NCBI RefSeq assembly: GCF_000518265.1
Contig: NZ_JADG01000003.1
Coordinates: forward strand, 930,001 to 994,000
DNA: 64,000 nucleotides
Reading direction: 5' to 3'
Source: Actinomadura oligospora ATCC 43269
GTDB taxonomy: Bacteria > Actinomycetota > Actinomycetes > Streptosporangiales > Streptosporangiaceae
Part shown: in pieces, positions 29,120 to 39,931 of the stretch
Layout of the letters: every line of letters starts with the position of its first letter
Position numbering within the stretch: the first letter of the stretch is position 1
Position numbers and translations under genes: made by a program
The notes under the pieces: generated by a model
Told to the model about the DNA's origin: nothing
Database searches by the model: none
The model's input: only the letters and a program-made list of their open reading frames with translations

Positions 29120-31651
29120 TCACGGGGTCTTCGTGAGGGCGTCGAGTTGACTCAGGATCGACGGGTCCTTGATTTCGTCGTCCCCGGCGAGAAGGAGCAC
29201 CTTGCTCAGGATGACGCTCGTCATTCGGTCGTCGTCGGCGAAAGGGAGGAAGAGGCGGCGGTGCGCGGTCTTGCCGAACGAGGCGGGCACGACGCACAGG
29301 TAGCCGCCCGGCTCGACGTGGATGCTGCCGCTGTTCAGGTGCACGCGGTAGGTCGCCCGGGTGCCCTTCACGACGGCTGAGTGCCCGTCGACGGTGACCT
29401 GGGACAGGCCCAGGTCGGTGATGAGCGCTCCGAGAACCTGCGCGCGACTGGCCGCCTGCGCCGGGGAGAGGTACGCCTCCGGCTCGGTTCCGGCGACCGA
29501 CACCATCAGGTCCAGGTCCCGCATGACCTCGGAGAACACCACCGGCGGCACGTCGGCGAGCGGCACGGGCGCGCCGCCGACGCTGCCCGACCCGGTCGGG
29601 TCTCCGTAGCGGGCCGGGGCGCGGCGTCCGCCGGTCAGGAAGCGGATCTCGCCGACGTGGACGTCGCCCATTCCGAAGTAGCCGTGGAAGTCGCAGCGCA
29701 CGGCGGCGATGAGGCCGTCCCCGGCGGCGCGGGTCGCCTGGTGGGCGTCGAACTCGCCGTGCGTGAACCAGCCGCGGCCGGACAGCAACTGGCCCGCCAC
29801 CTGGCCGTTGACGGTCTGACCGGCGAACCGCCGTGACACGTCGCCCGCTTCACGCTCCGCCGGAGTGAGGACGTACAGCTCGCGGAACACCTGCTTGACG
29901 GGCTGCGTGAGACGACGCCGCACGATCTCCGCCTGCCACTCGCCGAGCAGCCGCCGTTCGTGCAGGTCGACGGGGTGGACGGCGGTGACCGGGCCGGTCG
30001 TGTCGACCCGGTCGAGCAGGTCGATCGTGCCCGCTTCGTCCCGCCAGAGCAGGGTGGGCAGCATCGCCGCACCCGCGGGCAGCGACATGAGGCGGGACAG
30101 CTCGTCCGGTGTGAGGGTGGTGGAGGTGGAGACGAGCCGTTCCACCAGGCCGGTCCGCATGCGGCGCGCCTGGTCCCGCAGAAGCTCCTGGTGTTCGCGT
30201 AGTTCCTGGTAGGCGGGGTCGGAGCGGACGGCGGACGGCACCGACTTCAGCGTCTTGCCCGCCCGGCTGACCGCCAGCTTCGGGTCGGCGCCCTCGAACC
30301 GCAACGCGATCCGGTAGTCGCCGACCTGCGCCTCGGTGGGGGTTTCGGTGGCGATGCGGGCCTCGCAGTCCCATTCGAGGCGGCTCGCGTCGGGGAACCC
30401 GGTCACCTGCGCCAGGTGGTCGAGCGCGACCGAGATCGCGGCGGCGTGGCTGTGCCGCCGGTTGGGACCGAGCTTGGGGCCCTTCTTCGCGATCTCGCGC
30501 AGCGCCAGATAGCGATCCAGGACGGTCTCGTCCGGGGCCAGGGGCAGCATCCCGAACGCGGCGATGCCCTGGAGCGCGTTGCGCTTGACGCGTTTCTGGA
30601 CCTGGGCGCGGTTCCAGCCCATGACCGCCGACGTCAGCTCGCTCGGGACGAGCTTCAGCAGGCGCTGGGCGGCTTCCTCGCCCGCTTCCCCGATCGCGGC
30701 CAGGAGGGCGGCACGGTCCTGGCGGGTGACCTCGTCGGCGGGCATCGCCCGGATCAGGCGCATCAGCGACGCGGCGCGCCCCAGGCCGAACAGTGGCAGC
30801 AACGCGTCGGCGTCACCTGCGCGCAGCCGCCAGTCGAACGCCCGGCGCTGCTCCTCCACGGGCCGATCCCGCAGGAGGTCGAGCAGGGCGTCGCGTTCGG
30901 TGCCGGTCAGTTCCGCGATACCGAGGTGGTCGGCCACGTGCTGGTCGCCGGGCCAGGTCAGCGCCTCTTGGACGAACCGCACGCCGCGCGGGACCGGCGC
31001 TTTGGGAAAGTCGTCCCACTCGGCCGGGGGCGAGGACGAGACCAGGCGCCAGGTCAGCTCGTCCACATGGTCTCTGACGGCGTTTGCGCAGGCCAGATGC
31101 ATGATGTCTCTGCCGAGGTAGCGGTCGTCCGCGTAGGCCCGTTCGACCACGGTGGCGTCCAGGGCCCCGGCGCCGTGCAGCGCGTCGAGGATCCGTGTCA
31201 CGGTCTCGCGGCGCAGGACGCCCAGCGGGGTGAAGATCAGCAGCCGCAGCAGGTGGGTGTCGGCGGCGTTGACGGCGCGGTCGGCCACCTCGTCCAGTTG
31301 CAGCCGGTGACGGACGTCGACCTCGAGGTACGCGGCGAGCAGGGCCTTCCGGCGAGCGGACGGCCAGGGCGTGGTGAGCAGGTCGGCGATGTCGTCCGGC
31401 CGGACGACCGGGAAGGCGGCGTCGTAGAGTTCGTCGATCTCGGCGAGGATGTCGTCGATGTGCGGCGCGAAGTTGCCGTACACCAGGTCGTCGGCCCGCT
31501 CGATCCGGTGCCGGATCTCCTCCGCGACGTCCCGCATGGCCGTCAGGGCGGCGGCCTTCGACGCCTCCTGCGCCCTTTCCACCAGCCGCCACAGCGCCTG
31601 GCGTTGTTCGGCGACGACGTCGATGTACTTCTCCGGGACGGATCGCTCCAT
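29120..31651 (-). CDS. DUF4132-family giant protein
   Basis: 843 residues. The first 550 residues are mostly alpha-helical, HEAT-like, and the last third is the DUF4132 domain with KQVFRELYVLTPAEREAGD, SRRFAGQTVNGQVAGQLL, VAAVRCDFHGYFG-like IAAVRCDFHGYFG, and the end DDEIKDPSILSQLD. DUF4132 proteins (for example YehI and relatives of MolR) have unknown function and are often found with ATPases or other accessory genes in conflict-like loci. The ribosome site GGGAGG is inside the final Gly-Gly-stop codons of the upstream small gene, 5 nt from this start, so translation is coupled. No enzyme active site is recognised. Confidence 0.82.
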   Translation of the reverse strand: MERSVPEKYIDVVAEQRQALWRLVERAQEASKAAALTAMRDVAEEIRHRIERADDLVYGNFAPHIDDILAEIDELYDAAFPVVRPDDIADLLTTPWPSARRKALLAAYLEVDVRHRLQLDEVADRAVNAADTHLLRLLIFTPLGVLRRETVTRILDALHGAGALDATVVERAYADDRYLGRDIMHLACANAVRDHVDELTWRLVSSSPPAEWDDFPKAPVPRGVRFVQEALTWPGDQHVADHLGIAELTGTERDALLDLLRDRPVEEQRRAFDWRLRAGDADALLPLFGLGRAASLMRLIRAMPADEVTRQDRAALLAAIGEAGEEAAQRLLKLVPSELTSAVMGWNRAQVQKRVKRNALQGIAAFGMLPLAPDETVLDRYLALREIAKKGPKLGPNRRHSHAAAISVALDHLAQVTGFPDASRLEWDCEARIATETPTEAQVGDYRIALRFEGADPKLAVSRAGKTLKSVPSAVRSDPAYQELREHQELLRDQARRMRTGLVERLVSTSTTLTPDELSRLMSLPAGAAMLPTLLWRDEAGTIDLLDRVDTTGPVTAVHPVDLHERRLLGEWQAEIVRRRLTQPVKQVFRELYVLTPAEREAGDVSRRFAGQTVNGQVAGQLLSGRGWFTHGEFDAHQATRAAGDGLIAAVRCDFHGYFGMGDVHVGEIRFLTGGRRAPARYGDPTGSGSVGGAPVPLADVPPVVFSEVMRDLDLMVSVAGTEPEAYLSPAQAASRAQVLGALITDLGLSQVTVDGHSAVVKGTRATYRVHLNSGSIHVEPGGYLCVVPASFGKTAHRRLFLPFADDDRMTSVILSKVLLLAGDDEIKDPSILSQLDALTKTP

Positions 31652-31656
31652 GGTGA

Positions 31657-32079
31657 TCAGCCTCCCGCCAGCGCGACCAGCCGCAGGAACACGACCGGTT
31701 CGCCGAGCCGCAGCGTGACCTGCTCGTCCAGCTCGGTGACCTGCCGTCCGCCGACGAAGACGGCGAACGTGCCCCGGGAGAAGGCCCGGTGCGCCCGGGT
31801 CACTTCCGTGGTGACGTCCGGGGCCGTCGGCTCCCCCGGTGGCAACTTGATCGCACCGGCGGCGGCCTGCGCCCGGATCTCGTCGTCGGACAGGTACTGC
31901 CGGTCGAGGGTCCGGCGACAGCGCGCCGCGTCCACGCCCAGCTCCCGGACCTGCTCCTCGACCGTGCGCCGGATCAGCTCCCGGACCGTCGTGCGCTCCC
32001 CGGCCAGCCGCACCAGCACCGCCGGGACGTCCTCGCCGGACGCGCCGGGCCTCCGGCTGCGCACCTCGATGTCGACCAT
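31657..32079 (-). CDS. Ubiquitin/ThiS-like beta-grasp protein ending in Gly-Gly
   Basis: 140 residues. The layout is that of a beta-grasp fold: strand VDIEVRSR, strand AVLVRLAGE, helix TVRELIRRTVEEQVREL, a helical insert of about 50 residues, then FAVFVGGRQVTELDEQVTL and a last strand VVFLRLVALAGG that runs to the C-terminus. ThiS and MoaD share the TVxELL helix, the GD-type turn before the last strand (here LGEP) and the terminal GG. So the protein may be adenylated, thiocarboxylated or conjugated; no E1-like gene is in the window. Caution: the GG codons also form the ribosome site of the DUF4132 gene. The ATG at 32079 is preferred over one 30 nt upstream; TAGGGT stands 7 nt before it. Confidence 0.7.
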   Translation of the reverse strand: MVDIEVRSRRPGASGEDVPAVLVRLAGERTTVRELIRRTVEEQVRELGVDAARCRRTLDRQYLSDDEIRAQAAAGAIKLPPGEPTAPDVTTEVTRAHRAFSRGTFAVFVGGRQVTELDEQVTLRLGEPVVFLRLVALAGG

Positions 32080-32173: not shown

Positions 32174-32722
32174 CTAATGTGAGTAGTAACAAATGACCGG
32201 GGCAAGGTCACCCGGAGTGCCAACTACTCGGCATCCGCTCAATATCTGGGCGGTTCCGTCGCCACCTATCTCATATTCGGGACAGTCCGTACACGCCAAT
32301 CGCGTCACGTCTCCGCCGGAGCCCTTGCCCTCCCCGAGTCGCCCCCCGTGAACGCATATCGATGTGAGGCCGTGAGTGACCTGCCTGGCCCGGGCCACTG
32401 TCCGCTGCTTCACAGCGGCATTCAACAACGCAGCGAACGCACTGCCTTCTGACGTTTCTGGCGTCTTGAAGGTCAGCGTCACCAGCGGATGCGTATGGTC
32501 GCCGCATTGCACTACTTCCACCATCTCGACGCTCTCGATCACGTCGAGCGGCAGAGTTGTCCAGTTGGCACAACGACTTCCGATGGCGAACATGAGATGT
32601 GTGGAGGAATCTTCGGGAAGTTTAGCCAATCCCGTCAGTCTCACTGAAGTGTCAACTTCACCATGGCGCAGTTTTTCGCTGAATTCCTGCGCCGTGAACA
32701 GGCTCGTCTTCTGCGCCATCAT
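32174..32722 (-). CDS. Unknown 182-residue protein
   Basis: Not recognised. The N-terminal two thirds looks globular with alternating strands: SVRLTGLAKLPEDSSTHLMF, PLDVIESVEMVEVVQCGD, PLVTLTFKTPE. The C-terminal part is cysteine-bearing (VTRLACTDCPEYEIGGDG ... SGCRVVG), with a CxxC that might bind zinc. Codon use is noticeably AT-richer than the neighbours (AAA, CTT, GTT, TTC in runs), a sign of recent transfer. Two adjacent ATG codons start the frame. It is separated from the beta-grasp gene by 94 bp and reads the same way. No function is suggested. Confidence 0.65.
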   Translation of the reverse strand: MMAQKTSLFTAQEFSEKLRHGEVDTSVRLTGLAKLPEDSSTHLMFAIGSRCANWTTLPLDVIESVEMVEVVQCGDHTHPLVTLTFKTPETSEGSAFAALLNAAVKQRTVARARQVTHGLTSICVHGGRLGEGKGSGGDVTRLACTDCPEYEIGGDGTAQILSGCRVVGTPGDLAPVICYYSH

Positions 32723-32946: not shown

Positions 32947-33951
32947 GTGCGGCGGACCATCATCATCGGCGACATTCACGGCTGCTTCGACGAGCTTCTC
33001 GAACTCCTGGAGAAGGTCGACCTGCGGCCGGACGACCTGCTGGTCAGCGTCGGCGACCTCGTCGACCGAGGCCCCGCGCCCGGCGAGGTCGTCCGGTTTT
33101 TCCGCGAGCGTCCGAACTCGGTCGTGGTCATGGGCAACCACGAGCGCAAACACGTGCGCGGGATCTTCTCCTACGCGCAGGAGATCACCCGCATGCAGCT
33201 CGGCGACGACTACGCCGAGGCGGTCGACTGGATGCGGACGCTTCCGTACCACTTCGAGAACGACGACGTCCGCGTGGTCCATGCCGCGCTGCTGCCCGGG
33301 ATTCCTCTGGCCGAGCAGAAGGAGGAGATCCTCTGCGGCTCGACCAGCGGCGAACGTGAGCTCACCGCGCTGTTCCCGGACGGCCACTGGCATGACCATT
33401 ACAGCGACGCCAAGCCGGTCGTGTTCGGCCATCACGTCACCGGACGTGAACCGCTGCTCCGCGACGGCCGGATCTTCGGCCTGGACACCGGCGCCTGCCA
33501 CGGCTGGAACCTCACCGCGCTCTGCGTCCCGGGATTCACGGTGCACTCGGTGGCGGCGCACGCCGACCACTGGACGATCACCAAGCGCGAATGGCAGCTG
33601 CCCGTCCTCAAGGCCCGGCAGTGGCTCGACCTCACCTGGCAGGAGCTGGCCGAGGCCGTCACACGCTTCTCCTCGACGTCCGCCCCAGCCGCACGCGCAT
33701 GGCTGGAGTCGGTCGAAATCTGGGCGGCGGAGCTGCGGTCCTGCTTTCCCGCCCTGGTGACCGCGGCTCACCGCGCCGCCGACGGGCTCACCACGGACGA
33801 GCTGCGGCAGCATGCCGCCGCGCGATTCCTGTTCCAGGCCCGGGCCGGACGGCTCGACGACCCGAGCCTGGCCAGGCAGTGCTCGACGCCTCGCAAGGCG
33901 ATCGACCTGGCGACCGCGCTCGGGTCGCCTCCGCGCGACTTCCCGGGCTGA
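32947..33951 (+). CDS. PPP-type metallophosphatase with helical C-terminal domain
   Basis: 334 residues. The calcineurin-like motifs are complete: GDIHG (8-12), GDLVDRG (36-42), GNHE (63-66), a conserved His112 in RVVHAAL, and GHH (161-163). This is the diadenosine-tetraphosphatase/Pnkp/serine-threonine phosphatase type with two metals. About 110 extra residues after 225 are helical and unknown. The next gene, a propeller-repeat protein, starts 64 nt later, and the same pair occurs again as a fossil at 53.4-55.4 kb, so the two proteins probably work together. Substrate could be a phosphoprotein, nucleotide or RNA end. Confidence 0.88.
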   Translation: MRRTIIIGDIHGCFDELLELLEKVDLRPDDLLVSVGDLVDRGPAPGEVVRFFRERPNSVVVMGNHERKHVRGIFSYAQEITRMQLGDDYAEAVDWMRTLPYHFENDDVRVVHAALLPGIPLAEQKEEILCGSTSGERELTALFPDGHWHDHYSDAKPVVFGHHVTGREPLLRDGRIFGLDTGACHGWNLTALCVPGFTVHSVAAHADHWTITKREWQLPVLKARQWLDLTWQELAEAVTRFSSTSAPAARAWLESVEIWAAELRSCFPALVTAAHRAADGLTTDELRQHAAARFLFQARAGRLDDPSLARQCSTPRKAIDLATALGSPPRDFPG

Positions 33952-34015: not shown

Positions 34016-36679
34016 ATGAAGATCACCGACACGACGAGGCGTGCCGTCCTGGACGCGCTGACGACACAGGACTGGGCCGCGTTCGAGCCGGAACGCGACC
34101 TGCTCCCCCTCCGGACGGCGCTGAGGGAACTGGAACGCGCCGAGGGTGTCGGCGAGGCGCACCGGCTCGCGACCGAGCGGATCCGCGAACGCGGGGCCCT
34201 GCTCCGGCATCCGGACGCGCATCGCGTCGAGATCAGCACGGCGGCGCTCAGCCCGTCCGGACGGTACCTCGCGGTGGGCGACTTCGGCGGCGACGTCTAC
34301 GAGGACGGGGCCACCCTGGCGATCTGGGAGGTCGCCACCGGCCGCTGCGTGAACGTCATCGACGGGTTCGTCGGCGGGATCGGCTGGCCCGGATACGGCC
34401 GGACGCTCCAGTGGTCGGCCAACGAGACCCGGCTGGCCGTGATGTACCGGTCGAACAACATCGGCATCGTGGACCCCTTCGGCGATGAAAGCGGTGAGCC
34501 GGACGTGACCGCCCGGCTCACCTACAACGGCCGACCCGACCCGTTCGCGTTCGCGCCCGACGGGCAGCGCGCCTACGCCCTGGACGAGGGCTCCGACACC
34601 GGCGGCTCGATCGTGACGTTCCCCGGCCTCGAGACCACGACGGTGCCGGTGCTCGACCACGAGGAAGAGGCGGAAGAAGAGGAGGACGAGGACGACACGG
34701 GCTTCATGCTGCAGTGGCCGGCCTGGTCCCAGGACGGGAAGCGGCTGTACGGGGGCCTGTGGGACGGGAGGCTCTGCTCGATCGACGTCGCCTCGGGAGA
34801 GGTCATCTGGATCGTCCAGGGCGAGGAGGACCACTGGCACCCGTCCGCCGCGTGGAACCGGGACGAGACGCTCTTCGCCTACCGCCGCGACGGCGAACTC
34901 GTGATCGCGGACGCGGCGACCGGCCGGGACGTCGCCCTCGTCCCCGGTTTCTCCGATGTGCCGCTCGCGACCGTCCACCTGTCCTGGGGGAACCGGCTGG
35001 CCGTCGTCGTCCCCGCCGGGCACCGCGGCGACCGCGCGTACGTCGCGATCGTCGACCCGGCCGGCCGGCGCTGCTACGACCTCGACGTGGACGCCCGGGA
35101 CGGACACGACATGATCACCCCGTGGGCCTGGGCGCCGGACGGTGACCGCGCGGCCTTCCTCACCGCCGACGGCCGGATCGAGGTCTGGTCTATGGGCGAC
35201 GAGCGTGCCGAGCGAGTGGGCGCCTTCGTCGCTCCGAAGCAGGCCACCGGGCTGGTCTGGGGCGCGGACGAGGTGCTGGTGGCGCTGGGCGAGACCGTCC
35301 TGCACTTCGTGCGAGCCGACACCGGAGAGGTCGTCGGCGACACCACGCTGCTGCGGCAGCCCGCCGCTGAGCGTCCGCTGCTCCTTGACGATGACGACAT
35401 GGGCGAGGAGGTGTGGCCAGGTCCCAATCCCACGTTCGCGCTCGACGAGCGGACCTGGGCGGTCGCCTTCCGGGAGGGCATCGTGATCGCCCCTCCCGGA
35501 AGGGAGCAGGACCTGGCCGAGACACTCGCCTGGGTGGTGGACCGCCGCTGCGCGTGGCCGGTTCACTGGGGGCGGCTGGACGTCTTCCCCGACGCGCGCG
35601 CCGCCGCCGCTGAGTGCGAGGTGGGCGAGCCGCTGGATGAGTTGCTGGAGCCGTTCCTCGACGCCACCGAGCCGGTCCCGGTCCCGGCCCCCGGAGCGTG
35701 GCCGCCTCCCGGCCCGGACACGGTGGACGACCTGTTCGCCGGCTTCCTCGAAGCCGTCGTGGCGTACGGCGTGGACGAGCTTCCGTGGACTGGCGAGGCT
35801 CTCCACGAAGCGGCTCTCATCCGCGCCCGGCGCGGCGAGCCGGACGGCGTGCGCGCGCTGGTCGAGGCGTCCCCGGAACGCCGGCGCCCGTTCGTGGCGG
35901 CCGAGGCGGCGATGTTCCTGGTTTCAGCAGGCAGGCAGGACGATGCCCGCTCGCTCCTCGCCGAATACGAAGCGGCCTGCGAGAGTCAGTGGGCCGATCC
36001 GGACTGGTACCCGATGCATCAGGGCAGCCAGGCCCGCGCCGCGGCGGCCGTCGGCGGAGCGTACGCGGCGCTGGGCGACACCGAGCGCGCGGACCGGTGG
36101 TTCCGGACGGCCCGAGAAGCGCTGCGCGGGCTGCACGACAGCTGGGACCACCGCCTCCCGGTCGTCTGGGCCCTTCTGGAATGCGGACGGGAGGTCGAAG
36201 CGCAAGCCCTCCTCGAGGAAGCCACCGGCGATCCCGGCGACACCGCCGGTGTTCCGTTCATCGCCTACGCGCTGCGCAAGGGCCAGGTCGACCTCGTCGA
36301 ACGCATCCTGCGCGACGCAGAGAACTGGTTCCACGACTGGACGGTGGTGGCCCTTCTCCGGCAGCACGGCCAGGACGGCCTGCTGCGCGAATGGGCCGAG
36401 CGCAACAACCTCGCGGCCGACGAACCGGCCGACCAAGCCGACGAGGACCTCGCCCGCAGGTACGCCGAGATCACCCAGATCCCGCCCGCGAAGCGGCAGG
36501 TCCCGACCGCCGACCTGCTCATCCGGGCGGCCCGGCAGCACCGGCTCGACGCGGTGCTCGCCCTCCTCCCGAAGCTGCCGATGCCGACCCACGGCGGCAT
36601 GTCCTCACACGACCGTCCGTTCGCGGCGTTCAACGCGCTGCGCATCGTCACCACCGGAATCGACCACGAGACCTGGTGA
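34016..36679 (+). CDS. Beta-propeller plus helical-repeat protein, partner of the phosphatase
   Basis: 887 residues. Residues about 60-490 are propeller blades with WD40-like units (AALSPSGRYLAVGDFGG, FAFAPDGQRAYALDEG, AWAPDGDRAAFLTADGRIEVW). An acidic insert rich in Glu and Asp is near 225. From about 560 the chain is helical with TPR-like pairs (GAYAALGDTERADRWFRTAR) and a conserved end, LPKLPMPTHGGMSSHDRPFAAFNAL and GIDHETW. No catalytic motif is seen; it is probably a scaffold. The ATG is chosen because the frame upstream overlaps the phosphatase and is not conserved in the fossil copy. Confidence 0.75.
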   Translation: MKITDTTRRAVLDALTTQDWAAFEPERDLLPLRTALRELERAEGVGEAHRLATERIRERGALLRHPDAHRVEISTAALSPSGRYLAVGDFGGDVYEDGATLAIWEVATGRCVNVIDGFVGGIGWPGYGRTLQWSANETRLAVMYRSNNIGIVDPFGDESGEPDVTARLTYNGRPDPFAFAPDGQRAYALDEGSDTGGSIVTFPGLETTTVPVLDHEEEAEEEEDEDDTGFMLQWPAWSQDGKRLYGGLWDGRLCSIDVASGEVIWIVQGEEDHWHPSAAWNRDETLFAYRRDGELVIADAATGRDVALVPGFSDVPLATVHLSWGNRLAVVVPAGHRGDRAYVAIVDPAGRRCYDLDVDARDGHDMITPWAWAPDGDRAAFLTADGRIEVWSMGDERAERVGAFVAPKQATGLVWGADEVLVALGETVLHFVRADTGEVVGDTTLLRQPAAERPLLLDDDDMGEEVWPGPNPTFALDERTWAVAFREGIVIAPPGREQDLAETLAWVVDRRCAWPVHWGRLDVFPDARAAAAECEVGEPLDELLEPFLDATEPVPVPAPGAWPPPGPDTVDDLFAGFLEAVVAYGVDELPWTGEALHEAALIRARRGEPDGVRALVEASPERRRPFVAAEAAMFLVSAGRQDDARSLLAEYEAACESQWADPDWYPMHQGSQARAAAAVGGAYAALGDTERADRWFRTAREALRGLHDSWDHRLPVVWALLECGREVEAQALLEEATGDPGDTAGVPFIAYALRKGQVDLVERILRDAENWFHDWTVVALLRQHGQDGLLREWAERNNLAADEPADQADEDLARRYAEITQIPPAKRQVPTADLLIRAARQHRLDAVLALLPKLPMPTHGGMSSHDRPFAAFNALRIVTTGIDHETW

Positions 36680-36694: not shown

Positions 36695-39600
36695 TCATTC
36701 CTCCCGGCTCAGGACGGCGATGTCGCCGCCGAAGCAGACGACGAGCCGTCCTCGGGAGGTCGCGGCGAGCGCGGTGACCGGGTGCGGGAAGACCAGTTCG
36801 TCCGCGGCCGAGCGGCCCTCGGCGAGGTCCCAGACGCGCACGGTGCGGTCCGCGCTCCCGGAGAACGCGACGGGACGTCCGTCGAGGACGGTCGTCGCCA
36901 GGGCGGTGATGGTGCCGGTGTGGCCCGCCAACGCGGGCCACACCGGCGAGCCGTCGGACACATCCCAGGCTCGGACGACCTGGTCCCTACCTGCGGTGAC
37001 GGCGATCGCGCGGCCGTCGATCCTGGTCACCGCGACCGCGCACAGGTCGTCGGTGTCGCCAAGCCGCGGCTTGTGGACCTCCCGGCCGTTCCGCACCTGC
37101 CACACCACGGTCTCGGCGGACGCGTCGCCGCCCGCGGTGACGGCCACGGCGCGGCCCTCGGCGTCAGCGGTGACGGTGGCGGCGCGCACCGGGTCGTAGT
37201 GCAGGGACCGCAAGCGCCGTCCGACGCGCTTGCCCGTCCGCAGTTCGTGGACGGAGACGGCGTTGTCGTAGGTCCCGGTCACGACGACCTCCCGGTCGCC
37301 CTCCTTGCCGAGAGCGACGGCGATGACCTCGACGCGGTGGTCGGTGGCGAAGCGCACCTGCTCGCTGCCGTCGGTCAGGTCCCACAGCACGATCTCCTCG
37401 TTCGGAGCCGCGACCGCGACCGGACGACCGTCCAGCTCGGTCACCGCGAACGCCGAGACGGGGCCGGTGCGGATCGGCTCGGCGACCGGCGTGCCGCCCG
37501 CCAAGTCCCAGGTCCGCAGGTGGCCGCCACCAGCCGAGACCACCACCTCGCGGCCGTCGACCTCCGCGACGGCCACCTCGACGGCCCCGGCGCCGGGGCG
37601 GGGGCGAAGGGTGTCCGGATCGTCCTCGGCCGGTGGACGCAGCTCCCAGACGAAGATCGAGTCGTCGTCGCCGGACACCAGCGTGGGACGGCCGTGCAGT
37701 TCGGCGAACGCGAACGCGGCGGGGCCGGTGGTGTGGCCCTTCCACGGTTCGCCCACGGCTTCGCCGGTGGCCAGGTCCCACATCTGCGTCTCGGTGTGCG
37801 TCCGCCTCGTCCCGCCGATGACCGCGACGGGCCGTCCGCCGACCTCACCGATCGCCAGCGGGTGGGACCCGCGTCCGGCGATGGGCAGCTGCCGCGCCTC
37901 GGTCCGCGTGGCCAGGTCCCAGACCCTCGCGGTGTAGTCACGAGCGGTGGTGACGACCACCTGACGGCCGTCGACCGTGGCGGCGGCCACCTGCACGATC
38001 TCCCGCCTGTGCCCGACCAGCGGATCGCCGAGGCGCCGACGCGTGGTCAGGTCCCAGACGTCCACCGTGCAGTCGTTCGGGTACATCCCGCTCGCCACGA
38101 GGGCGACCGGACGGCCGTCCAGCTCGGTGACCGTGATGGCGTGCACCTCGGCCGCGGGGCCGACAAGGGGCTCCCCCGACGCGTGGCCCTCGGCCAGGTC
38201 CCAGACGCGGACCTCGTTCTCCGCGCCGCCGCCGCGTCCGCCGGACAGGGCCACGAGACGGCCGTCGACCTTCGCGACGGCGAGGGCCCGAACCTGAGTG
38301 TCAGGTGTGGTCAGGGGTGCTCCGATCTCCTTGCCGAGCGCCAGATCCCAGATCCTGACGGTGCCGTCGTCGCCGCCGCTCACCGCGACGTCACGGCCGT
38401 CGAGGGTGGTGAGCGCGACGACGTTCACCGCTCCCCGGTGGCCCTTCAGGTCGCTGCCGATCTGGTCGCCGGTGGTCGGGTCGAGGACGCGTAGCTTCTG
38501 GGTCCACCCTGCGGAGACGACGACGGCGCGCCCCTCAACCGTTCCCGTCGCGAGCGTCCGGCAAGTGCTCCCGGGAAGCGACAGCGCGGCGCGGTCGGTC
38601 AGGTCGGTTCCTGTCGCCCAGTCCACGCGCCATGTGGAGCGGGCGCGGCTCCTGCCCGCTGGACGGTCCGGGCCTGCGAGCGAGATGTCCCACAGCAGCA
38701 TCGCGCTGTCCCGTCCGGCGGTCACGGCGACCGGGCGTCCCTCCAGCTCGCCGACCGTGAGGGCGGTCGACGACTGGGCGTGGGCCTCCATCGGATCCCC
38801 GATCGGACGGTCCTCGGCGAGGTCCCACATGCGGAGAGTGCGGTCGAGACACTCGACGATCACGACCGGCCGTCCGTCCACCATCGTGGTGGCGATCTTG
38901 CCGGGGGCGCTCAGGTCGTGGTCCCGGAACGGTTCGCCGACCACCGTGCGGGTGGCCAGGTCCCGGGCCTGCAGGGGCTTGTCCGGCCCGCCGCTGGTCA
39001 CGGCCACGGGACGTCCGTTCAGGATCGTGATGGCCAGGCTGCTGCCGTAACACTCCAGCGGCTCGCCCAAGCCGTGCCCGTCGGACGGATCCCAGAACCG
39101 CAGCGTGTGATCCAGGCCCAAGGTCACCAGCACCGTCCGGCCGTCGACCTCCACGACGTCCGCGTCGCACACGAGCCCGTCGTGGCCCTCGAACCGTCCG
39201 CTGATCCGCGTGCCTCGCTGGAGGTCCCAGATCTGGACCGGGTCGGGGTCGTAGCCGCAGCAGATCGCGACGGGCCGTCCGTCCAGGACGGCCGTCGTGA
39301 TCCTGAGGACGGTGTTCCTGCCGGAGCGCAGCATGCCCCCGATCTTCGTTCCGGTCGTCAGGTCCCAGCGCTGCATGCCCATGTCGTAACCGGCGACGAG
39401 GATCGGACGACCGCGGACGGTCGTGGTGGCCACCGCCGTGGCCCGCTGGTCGAGAACGCCCGTCTCGTCACCGGTCGCCATGTCCCACAGGCGCACGGTG
39501 TCGTTGATGTACTTCGCGCCGACCGCGACGGCCCTGCCGTCGACCGTCGCGGTCGCCAGCGCCTCGATGCGCTCGGTCCGTCCGGCGAAGCGGCGGACCA

Positions 39601-39931
39601 GCCGGTTGTTCGGCATGCGTCCGGTGTTCCAGACCGTGGCGGCGGCGGGATCGTCGCCGGACGGCGTCGCGACGTCCGCGATCCGGCGGGCGAGGTCGTC
39701 GGCTCCCCAGCGGGACGCGTCCAGGCTCAGCGCCTGCCGACGCCGGACGGCGTCCACGTGCCGATGCCGTTCGAACGACGTCCGGTAGACCGTCGCCGCC
39801 AGCCGTGCCTCGGCGCTGGTGGCGCGCTGAAGCAGGGCCAGCACCTCGCCCGGATCCGCATGGACCAGGTGCTTCGGATCGCACAGCAGGTCATCGGCGG
39901 ACGGCGGCTCGGCGGGAGCGGAGTTGATCAT
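36695..39931 (-). CDS. Stand-alone WD40 protein with about twenty repeats
   Basis: 1078 residues. After about 110 residues, the chain is a series of about twenty WD40 units of roughly 45-50 residues, each with a LDGRPVAVTAG-type strand and a VRVWDLATG-type strand, enough for three seven-bladed propellers. The N-terminal stretch (LCDPKHLVHADPGEVLALL, ARLAATVYRTSFERHRH) resembles the linker that precedes WD40 repeats in large actinobacterial STAND/AAA NTPase proteins, but the NTPase and effector domains are absent here. So it may be a detached sensor module. It converges on the phosphatase-propeller pair with a 15-bp gap. Confidence 0.88.
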   Translation of the reverse strand: MINSAPAEPPSADDLLCDPKHLVHADPGEVLALLQRATSAEARLAATVYRTSFERHRHVDAVRRRQALSLDASRWGADDLARRIADVATPSGDDPAAATVWNTGRMPNNRLVRRFAGRTERIEALATATVDGRAVAVGAKYINDTVRLWDMATGDETGVLDQRATAVATTTVRGRPILVAGYDMGMQRWDLTTGTKIGGMLRSGRNTVLRITTAVLDGRPVAICCGYDPDPVQIWDLQRGTRISGRFEGHDGLVCDADVVEVDGRTVLVTLGLDHTLRFWDPSDGHGLGEPLECYGSSLAITILNGRPVAVTSGGPDKPLQARDLATRTVVGEPFRDHDLSAPGKIATTMVDGRPVVIVECLDRTLRMWDLAEDRPIGDPMEAHAQSSTALTVGELEGRPVAVTAGRDSAMLLWDISLAGPDRPAGRSRARSTWRVDWATGTDLTDRAALSLPGSTCRTLATGTVEGRAVVVSAGWTQKLRVLDPTTGDQIGSDLKGHRGAVNVVALTTLDGRDVAVSGGDDGTVRIWDLALGKEIGAPLTTPDTQVRALAVAKVDGRLVALSGGRGGGAENEVRVWDLAEGHASGEPLVGPAAEVHAITVTELDGRPVALVASGMYPNDCTVDVWDLTTRRRLGDPLVGHRREIVQVAAATVDGRQVVVTTARDYTARVWDLATRTEARQLPIAGRGSHPLAIGEVGGRPVAVIGGTRRTHTETQMWDLATGEAVGEPWKGHTTGPAAFAFAELHGRPTLVSGDDDSIFVWELRPPAEDDPDTLRPRPGAGAVEVAVAEVDGREVVVSAGGGHLRTWDLAGGTPVAEPIRTGPVSAFAVTELDGRPVAVAAPNEEIVLWDLTDGSEQVRFATDHRVEVIAVALGKEGDREVVVTGTYDNAVSVHELRTGKRVGRRLRSLHYDPVRAATVTADAEGRAVAVTAGGDASAETVVWQVRNGREVHKPRLGDTDDLCAVAVTRIDGRAIAVTAGRDQVVRAWDVSDGSPVWPALAGHTGTITALATTVLDGRPVAFSGSADRTVRVWDLAEGRSAADELVFPHPVTALAATSRGRLVVCFGGDIAVLSREE

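Follow-up and report, generated by a model that had tools for sequence, protein, structure and literature searches.

Within a 64,000-nucleotide (nt) stretch of the genome of Actinomadura oligospora ATCC 43269 (contig NZ_JADG01000003.1, positions 930,001 to 994,000; hereafter the window), a gene for a 140-amino acid (aa) protein that ends in Gly-Gly (GG) directly precedes a gene for an 843-aa protein containing DUF4132 and DUF7737 domains. The recurrence of this pair in distant bacteria points to a two-gene system, little known so far, whose function may resemble that of sulfur carriers or ubiquitin-type modifiers. The interpretation in the earlier note, which had proposed a new small-modifier or sulfur-carrier system from the sequence alone, is partly supported: the dedicated partner is real and both the predicted fold and the GG terminus fit, whereas no linked activating gene was found and the Deinococcus radiodurans member of the family has already been studied. 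The small protein, here denoted Ubl (ubiquitin-like), is encoded at window positions 31657..32079 of the minus strand and is assigned to the GG-ending ubiquitin/MoaD-like β-grasp proteins on the basis of its open reading frame (ORF), homologues, structural model and fold matches. The ORF starts with ATG and ends in ...VVFLRLVALAGG followed by the stop codon; a gap of 5 nt separates this stop from the ATG of the 843-aa ORF (29120-31651, minus), an arrangement that the earlier note had described and that the ORFs and Pfam confirm. The terminal glycine codons, GGA GGC (31660..31665, minus), are overlapped by GGGAGG (31661..31666, minus), a Shine-Dalgarno-like site of the next gene.

The 140-aa protein has no matches in Pfam or NCBIfam, yet by sequence comparison it belongs to a real, phylum-spanning family. 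A search of 5.8 billion proteins, in which no GG terminus was required, retrieved 128 Ubl relatives; a profile built from 54 diverse members (alignment A3) matched 2985 protein clusters; and scanning genome contigs with a GG-containing pattern yielded 79 loci. According to the record titles, these loci come from Actinomycetota, Chloroflexi, Pseudomonas, Methylobacter, Cupriavidus, Bradyrhizobium, Cyanobacteria, Planctomycetes, Deinococcales, Armatimonadota, a Verrucomicrobiia bin and others.

The C-terminal GG is present in 119 of the 120 relatives listed from the 5.8-billion-protein search (the record of the exception, P0101, is truncated by ten residues), and in 120 of the best 120 among the 2985 matches of the A3 profile, which is biased towards GG. 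That all 54 rows of A3 agree at G139 and G140 partly reflects how the alignment was built: its rows were trimmed to end at GG, which removed the residues that follow GG in L028 and L029. Within the loci, GG terminates 102 of 107 Ubl ORFs (two genes are counted twice, L188 being the same as L085 and L191 the same as L075); the other five are L028 (GGA), L029 (GGAV) and the broken genes L180 and L034 (the latter in two pieces). The conservation extends beyond the two glycines to the whole tail, FxRLxxLxGG. The earlier note had cautioned that the glycines might be kept because their codons supply the ribosome site of the downstream gene, and part of this caveat stands: apart from the overlap in the window, the first Gly codon is Shine-Dalgarno-like (GGA or GGG) in 44 of the 74 close or unclassified Ubl genes, as opposed to 4 of the 28 that are distant from, last after or divergent from the DUF4132 gene. 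The ribosome site apparently exploits the Gly codons where possible but does not explain the glycines, because these are retained in the other layouts as well. When the downstream DUF4132 start lies at least 20 nt past the Ubl stop (taking the longest possible ORF), GG is found in 20 of 21 pairs, 12 of them from Pseudomonas, the remaining one being the broken L180; the gap in one of the pairs, L204, is doubtful because its DUF4132 ORF is short (446 aa). GG is likewise present in 7/7 loci, all of one genus, that have no DUF4132 gene after Ubl in the fetched region, and in the single locus (1/1) with Ubl on the opposite strand.

The large partner is equally real and phylum-spanning. A DUF4132-type ORF accompanies Ubl in 74 of the 79 loci, with none in the stretch available for L061, L069, L070, L082 and L086; after Ubl and DUF4132, the largest neighbour clusters cover 10/79 (ORFs antisense to the Ubl region) and 9/79 loci. 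In the reverse survey, DUF4132 matches were collected from whole genomes and their surroundings were fetched and scanned for Ubl. Usable upstream sequence was available for 20 DUF7737-type loci, of which 15 carry an intact GG-ending Ubl, one a decayed copy and four none (L176 was assigned by eye; L168, L174, L280, L167 and L194, with L168 repeating the L165 gene, are omitted because of edges, as are L188 and L191). Without seven loci from genomes that had been reached through Ubl (L185, L186, L187, L189, L190, L192 and L193), the figures are 10 intact, one decayed and two none of 13. Ubl is found in 0/14 loci with low-scoring DUF4132 genes that lack DUF7737, here termed the MolR type, and the probability of 10/13 versus 0/14 arising by chance is ~3e-5 (hypergeometric). 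A second batch of DUF7737-type genes, hand-picked and partly so after short flanks had been seen, comprises ten loci with Ubl and seven without (L280 omitted), and the DUF4132 genes of L276 and L277, devoid of DUF7737, have no Ubl in the fetched regions. A scan of 13 loci without Ubl for GG-ending frames of at least 90 aa revealed none that was Ubl-like by eye. Finally, tblastn of plasmids produced seven records, and the three examined all have Ubl directly upstream (two from Deinococcus with GG, one from Bacteroides with a different end). The tie between DUF7737 and Ubl is thus suggestive rather than strict. In the window's own genus, L267-L272 and L274 show the order DUF4132, DUF4132, Ubl, as opposed to the usual Ubl-first order. 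Genomes of this genus are rich in DUF4132 matches, often ~3.3 kb apart in tandem, with 16 in each of three genomes; such arrays include G269:C1:7639740-7721517 and G304:C1:852111-908062, and the low-scoring regions examined are free of Ubl.

The AlphaFold2 model of Ubl (mean predicted local distance difference test score, pLDDT, 76; predicted template modelling score, pTM, 0.66) consists of strands 2-9, 21-25 and 29-31, helices 32-62, 65-73 and 89-101, strands 105-109, 112-114, 120-122 and 129-133, and a 7-residue tail; it is weakest in the ten-residue blocks from 51 to 90, which average pLDDT 49-66. The model has the β-β-α-β-β(-β) topology, and the structural matches of this predicted structure, with middling Z scores, include 5mpo and 1fm0. 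The predicted fold is accordingly the ubiquitin/MoaD-type β-grasp, and the model with its fold matches bears out the order of strands and helices that had been read from the sequence. The 'ThiS-like helix' of the earlier note, in contrast, found no sequence support: hhalign comparison of the Ubl family with 29 ThiS/MoaD sequences gave no significance, and Pfam ThiS (PF02597) matched one of 54 family members, with E 0.16, and missed the window protein, so that membership in ThiS/MoaD at the sequence level is rejected. When the Ubl alignments were searched against sequences of solved structures, the best E was 0.29. A known defence system was also considered and rejected, as PADLOC gave Ubl just a weak HEC-01B match (E 0.024) and left the partner unmatched.

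The 843-aa partner (29120..31651, minus), delineated by Pfam, its model and its association with Ubl, combines a helical N-terminal part (residues 1-435, 30347..31651, minus; from the secondary structure of the model and structural matches), DUF4132 (residues 465-628, 29768..30259, minus) and DUF7737 (residues 734-836, 29144..29452, minus); Pfam also places the C-terminal edge of DUF5724 at residues 356-428. The match to DUF4132 (PF13569) scores 108.1 bits against a curated cut-off of 27. The model (mean pLDDT 91.6, pTM 0.82) shows helices to about residue 435 followed by mixed α/β structure, and its structural matches are mostly helical-repeat proteins that cover mainly residues 7-280. L534, H559, Q583, P584, Q587, R590, E599, W628, R711 and D714 do not vary among the 76 aligned partners, nor does C786 of DUF7737 among the 68 of these sequences that have the column. 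Several of the invariant residues are common to the low-scoring DUF4132 group, K586, E591, Y593, R711 and D714 less so. Judged by conservation, the invariant residues of DUF4132-DUF7737 look like an enzyme core. None of the Pfam matches is to an enzyme family, all being to DUFs, and the best hit of the C-terminal half among sequences of solved structures has E 0.08. A profile of the partner also matched SdeA, named a ubiquitinating/deubiquitinating enzyme (E 0.002, profile positions 164-403); this match, which lies in the helical region and not near the invariant residues, is treated as chance. In the sources accessible in part, DUF4132 appears in a WGR-DUF4132 protein of Leptospira, in an insertion in an Escherichia coli DUF4132 region and in DRA0166; DUF5724, DUF7737 and the three Pfam numbers are not mentioned in the literature searched, and the terms MolR, WGR and YehI are absent from PMC1779556, PMC1949818 and PMC7159879.

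The pair is not wholly new: earlier work on D. radiodurans treated the family member of that species as a MoaD-like stress peptide. In D. radiodurans, two YeeE/YedE genes and trxC are followed by a gene for a 134-aa protein, which matches the Ubl profile with E 1.3e-32 and ends in LTALAGG, and, 2 nt further on, by a gene for a 1626-aa DUF4132 protein that also has DUF7737; by gene order, trxC, the 134-aa gene and the DUF4132 gene correspond to DR_A0164, DR_A0165 and DR_A0166. In the same region (L287:496-8087), a DUF99 gene comes after the pair, and molybdate transport and thiS genes lie further on. According to the available parts of PMC9650054, DR_A0165 (peptide SEP068184) is increased after irradiation and H2O2, its deletion leads to higher H2O2 resistance, it binds Trx1 by pull-down and co-precipitates 157 proteins across four tag settings, and it is predicted to fold similarly to the small subunits of molybdopterin synthase and to SAMP1. 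The peptide is described there as Deinococcus-only, which is contradicted by the spread of the 79 loci and 2985 protein clusters to other phyla; in the same parts of that paper, the terms ubiquitin, beta-grasp and glycine are absent and DRA0166 is not treated as a partner. The portions available of PMC8533742 report that the drA0165-drA0166 operon is strongly up on DdrO depletion and that the DRA0166 protein is up after mitomycin C in an IrrE-dependent manner, and propose a role of DUF4132 in molybdopterin biosynthesis, though moeA and moeB are unchanged. On the presence of a DdrO-type motif upstream, the two papers, as far as accessible, disagree. In a search that left most subscription papers and bioRxiv outside its range, no paper was found that names the family as one spanning phyla, its GG terminus or the pairing.

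Taken together, these observations lead us to favour, tentatively and at somewhat less than even odds, a reading in which the 140-aa protein is a stand-alone β-grasp protein with the free GG as its working end, the DUF4132-DUF7737 protein is its dedicated partner, and an E1 acting in trans activates the tail, which the partner then uses. The predicted fold, the layout-independent GG and the recurring pairing support this reading; the activation in trans and the use of the tail are inferred. MoaD offers the working model: MoeB adenylates and thiocarboxylates the GG tail of this β-grasp protein, and the modified tail is then inserted into MoaE. By analogy, with MoaD as the GG-tailed protein, MoaE as the large partner and MoeB supplied in trans, an E1-type enzyme encoded elsewhere and shared would adenylate, and perhaps thiocarboxylate, the Ubl tail; the activated tail would enter the DUF4132-DUF7737 protein; and the partner would use it either for sulfur delivery or for attaching Ubl to a target picked by the helical region, probably under stress conditions. 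In one Deinococcus, the presence of YeeE/YedE and thioredoxin genes nearby hints at sulfur or redox chemistry, but D. ficus has none of them in the stretch shown. The earlier note had seen no E1 gene in the window, which agrees with the location of the two ThiF matches of this genome on contigs C10 and C1 (the window is on C2); the genome search that it recommended yielded one clear MoeB/ThiF homologue, and an E1 homologue is present in 20 of 20 genomes.

Three observations weigh against this reading. First, no ThiF-like ORF was detected in the 79 loci at E 1e-3, using one phmmer query, the ThiF domain of this genome, and flanks of up to 8 kb. Second, a plasmid of Bacteroides finegoldii carries, beside a DUF4132-DUF7737 gene, a relative (profile E 1.6e-22) that ends in IRLAMLSGRLW. 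Third, the Chloroflexota proteins L028 (end 8432) and L029 (end 8453) add A or AV past GG; if a free GG is required, these proteins would have to be trimmed. The expectation of the earlier note that homologues end in GG hence holds for nearly all members, also with the downstream gene distant, absent or on the opposite strand, and fails for these three. The Bacteroides gene (L288:1950-2369) lies between a rhomboid protease gene and the DUF4132 gene, after which comes a GAF-domain gene; in L028 and L029, the Ubl stop overlaps the start of the next gene.

The strongest competitor, to which we assign a distinctly lower probability, is that Ubl is a non-covalent subunit or regulator whose GG tail is never activated and either docks in a groove of DUF4132-DUF7737 or binds other proteins such as thioredoxin. 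This would fit the absence of a ThiF-like ORF and of any further neighbour cluster in more than 10 of the 79 loci, the conservation of an entire tail rather than GG alone, the persistence of the Bacteroides pair without GG and the partly accessible report of Trx1 binding by pull-down (PMC9650054). For an unactivated docking tail, however, an exact stop at GG, as seen in 102 of 107 ORFs, would be unexpected. YukD- and TmoB-type proteins are not known to have an invariant GG.

Alternatively, the partner itself could be the activating or ligating enzyme, with DUF4132 and/or DUF7737 activating GG without a canonical E1, possibly through C786, and conjugating Ubl to targets. We consider this unlikely, even though the partner is the sole linked gene, its DUF4132 has enzyme-like invariant polar residues (76/76) and its DUF7737 the invariant C786 (68/68), and DUF4132 proteins without DUF7737 are also without Ubl (L276, L277 and all 14 low-scoring loci): the DUF-only Pfam matches and the poor best hit of the C-terminal half speak against it, as does Nocardia NBC_01329, in which a GG-ending Ubl (P0057) co-occurs with a DUF4132 record (P0141) that has no DUF7737 match, its end being seemingly frame-shifted. 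Still less probable is the broader proposal of a phylum-spanning, E1-independent Ubl system in which DUF4132-DUF7737 alone would activate GG and attach Ubl to targets selected by the helical region, with DNA damage or oxidation as the trigger. The idea that GG is retained solely as the ribosome-binding site of the downstream gene is refuted by the layout-independent glycines and deserves practically no weight.

Upstream of the Ubl gene, the window contains a 182-aa minus-strand ORF without a Pfam match (32177-32722) and a gene for a calcineurin-like phosphoesterase (32947-33948) that adjoins those for an 887-aa WD40-like protein (34016-36676, plus) and a 1078-aa WD40 protein (36698-39931, minus).

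A functional tail would mean that a large family of ubiquitin/MoaD-like proteins (2985 protein clusters) with a fixed large partner has gone almost unnoticed; it would also provide a first testable role for DUF4132 and DUF7737 and explain the odd stress phenotype of D. radiodurans. Among potentially comparable systems, the low-scoring DUF4132 proteins share the domain and its common conserved residues but have neither DUF7737 nor, in 14 loci, Ubl. Bil, Bub and type II CBASS likewise employ a GG-type β-grasp modifier, but their operons carry E1-like and further genes (in part from PMC1779556), whereas the 79 loci analysed here yielded no ThiF-like ORF to one phmmer query at E 1e-3. The closest likeness is to MoaD-MoaE with MoeB, which share with the pair the fold of the small subunit (predicted here; 5mpo, 1fm0), the GG end, a single large partner and an E1 encoded elsewhere. 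Ubl nevertheless differs from MoaD, of which the window genome has its own relatives (six separate ThiS/MoaD matches), in having no significant ThiS/MoaD sequence similarity and, in the model, a helical insert between α1 and β3; the partner differs from MoaE in its length of 843 aa and its DUF5724, DUF4132 and DUF7737 domains, the fold comparison of the partner covering mostly residues 7-280. Given a functional tail, the pair would be a compact two-gene case for how GG-tailed β-grasp proteins were recruited to sulfur transfer and protein modification.
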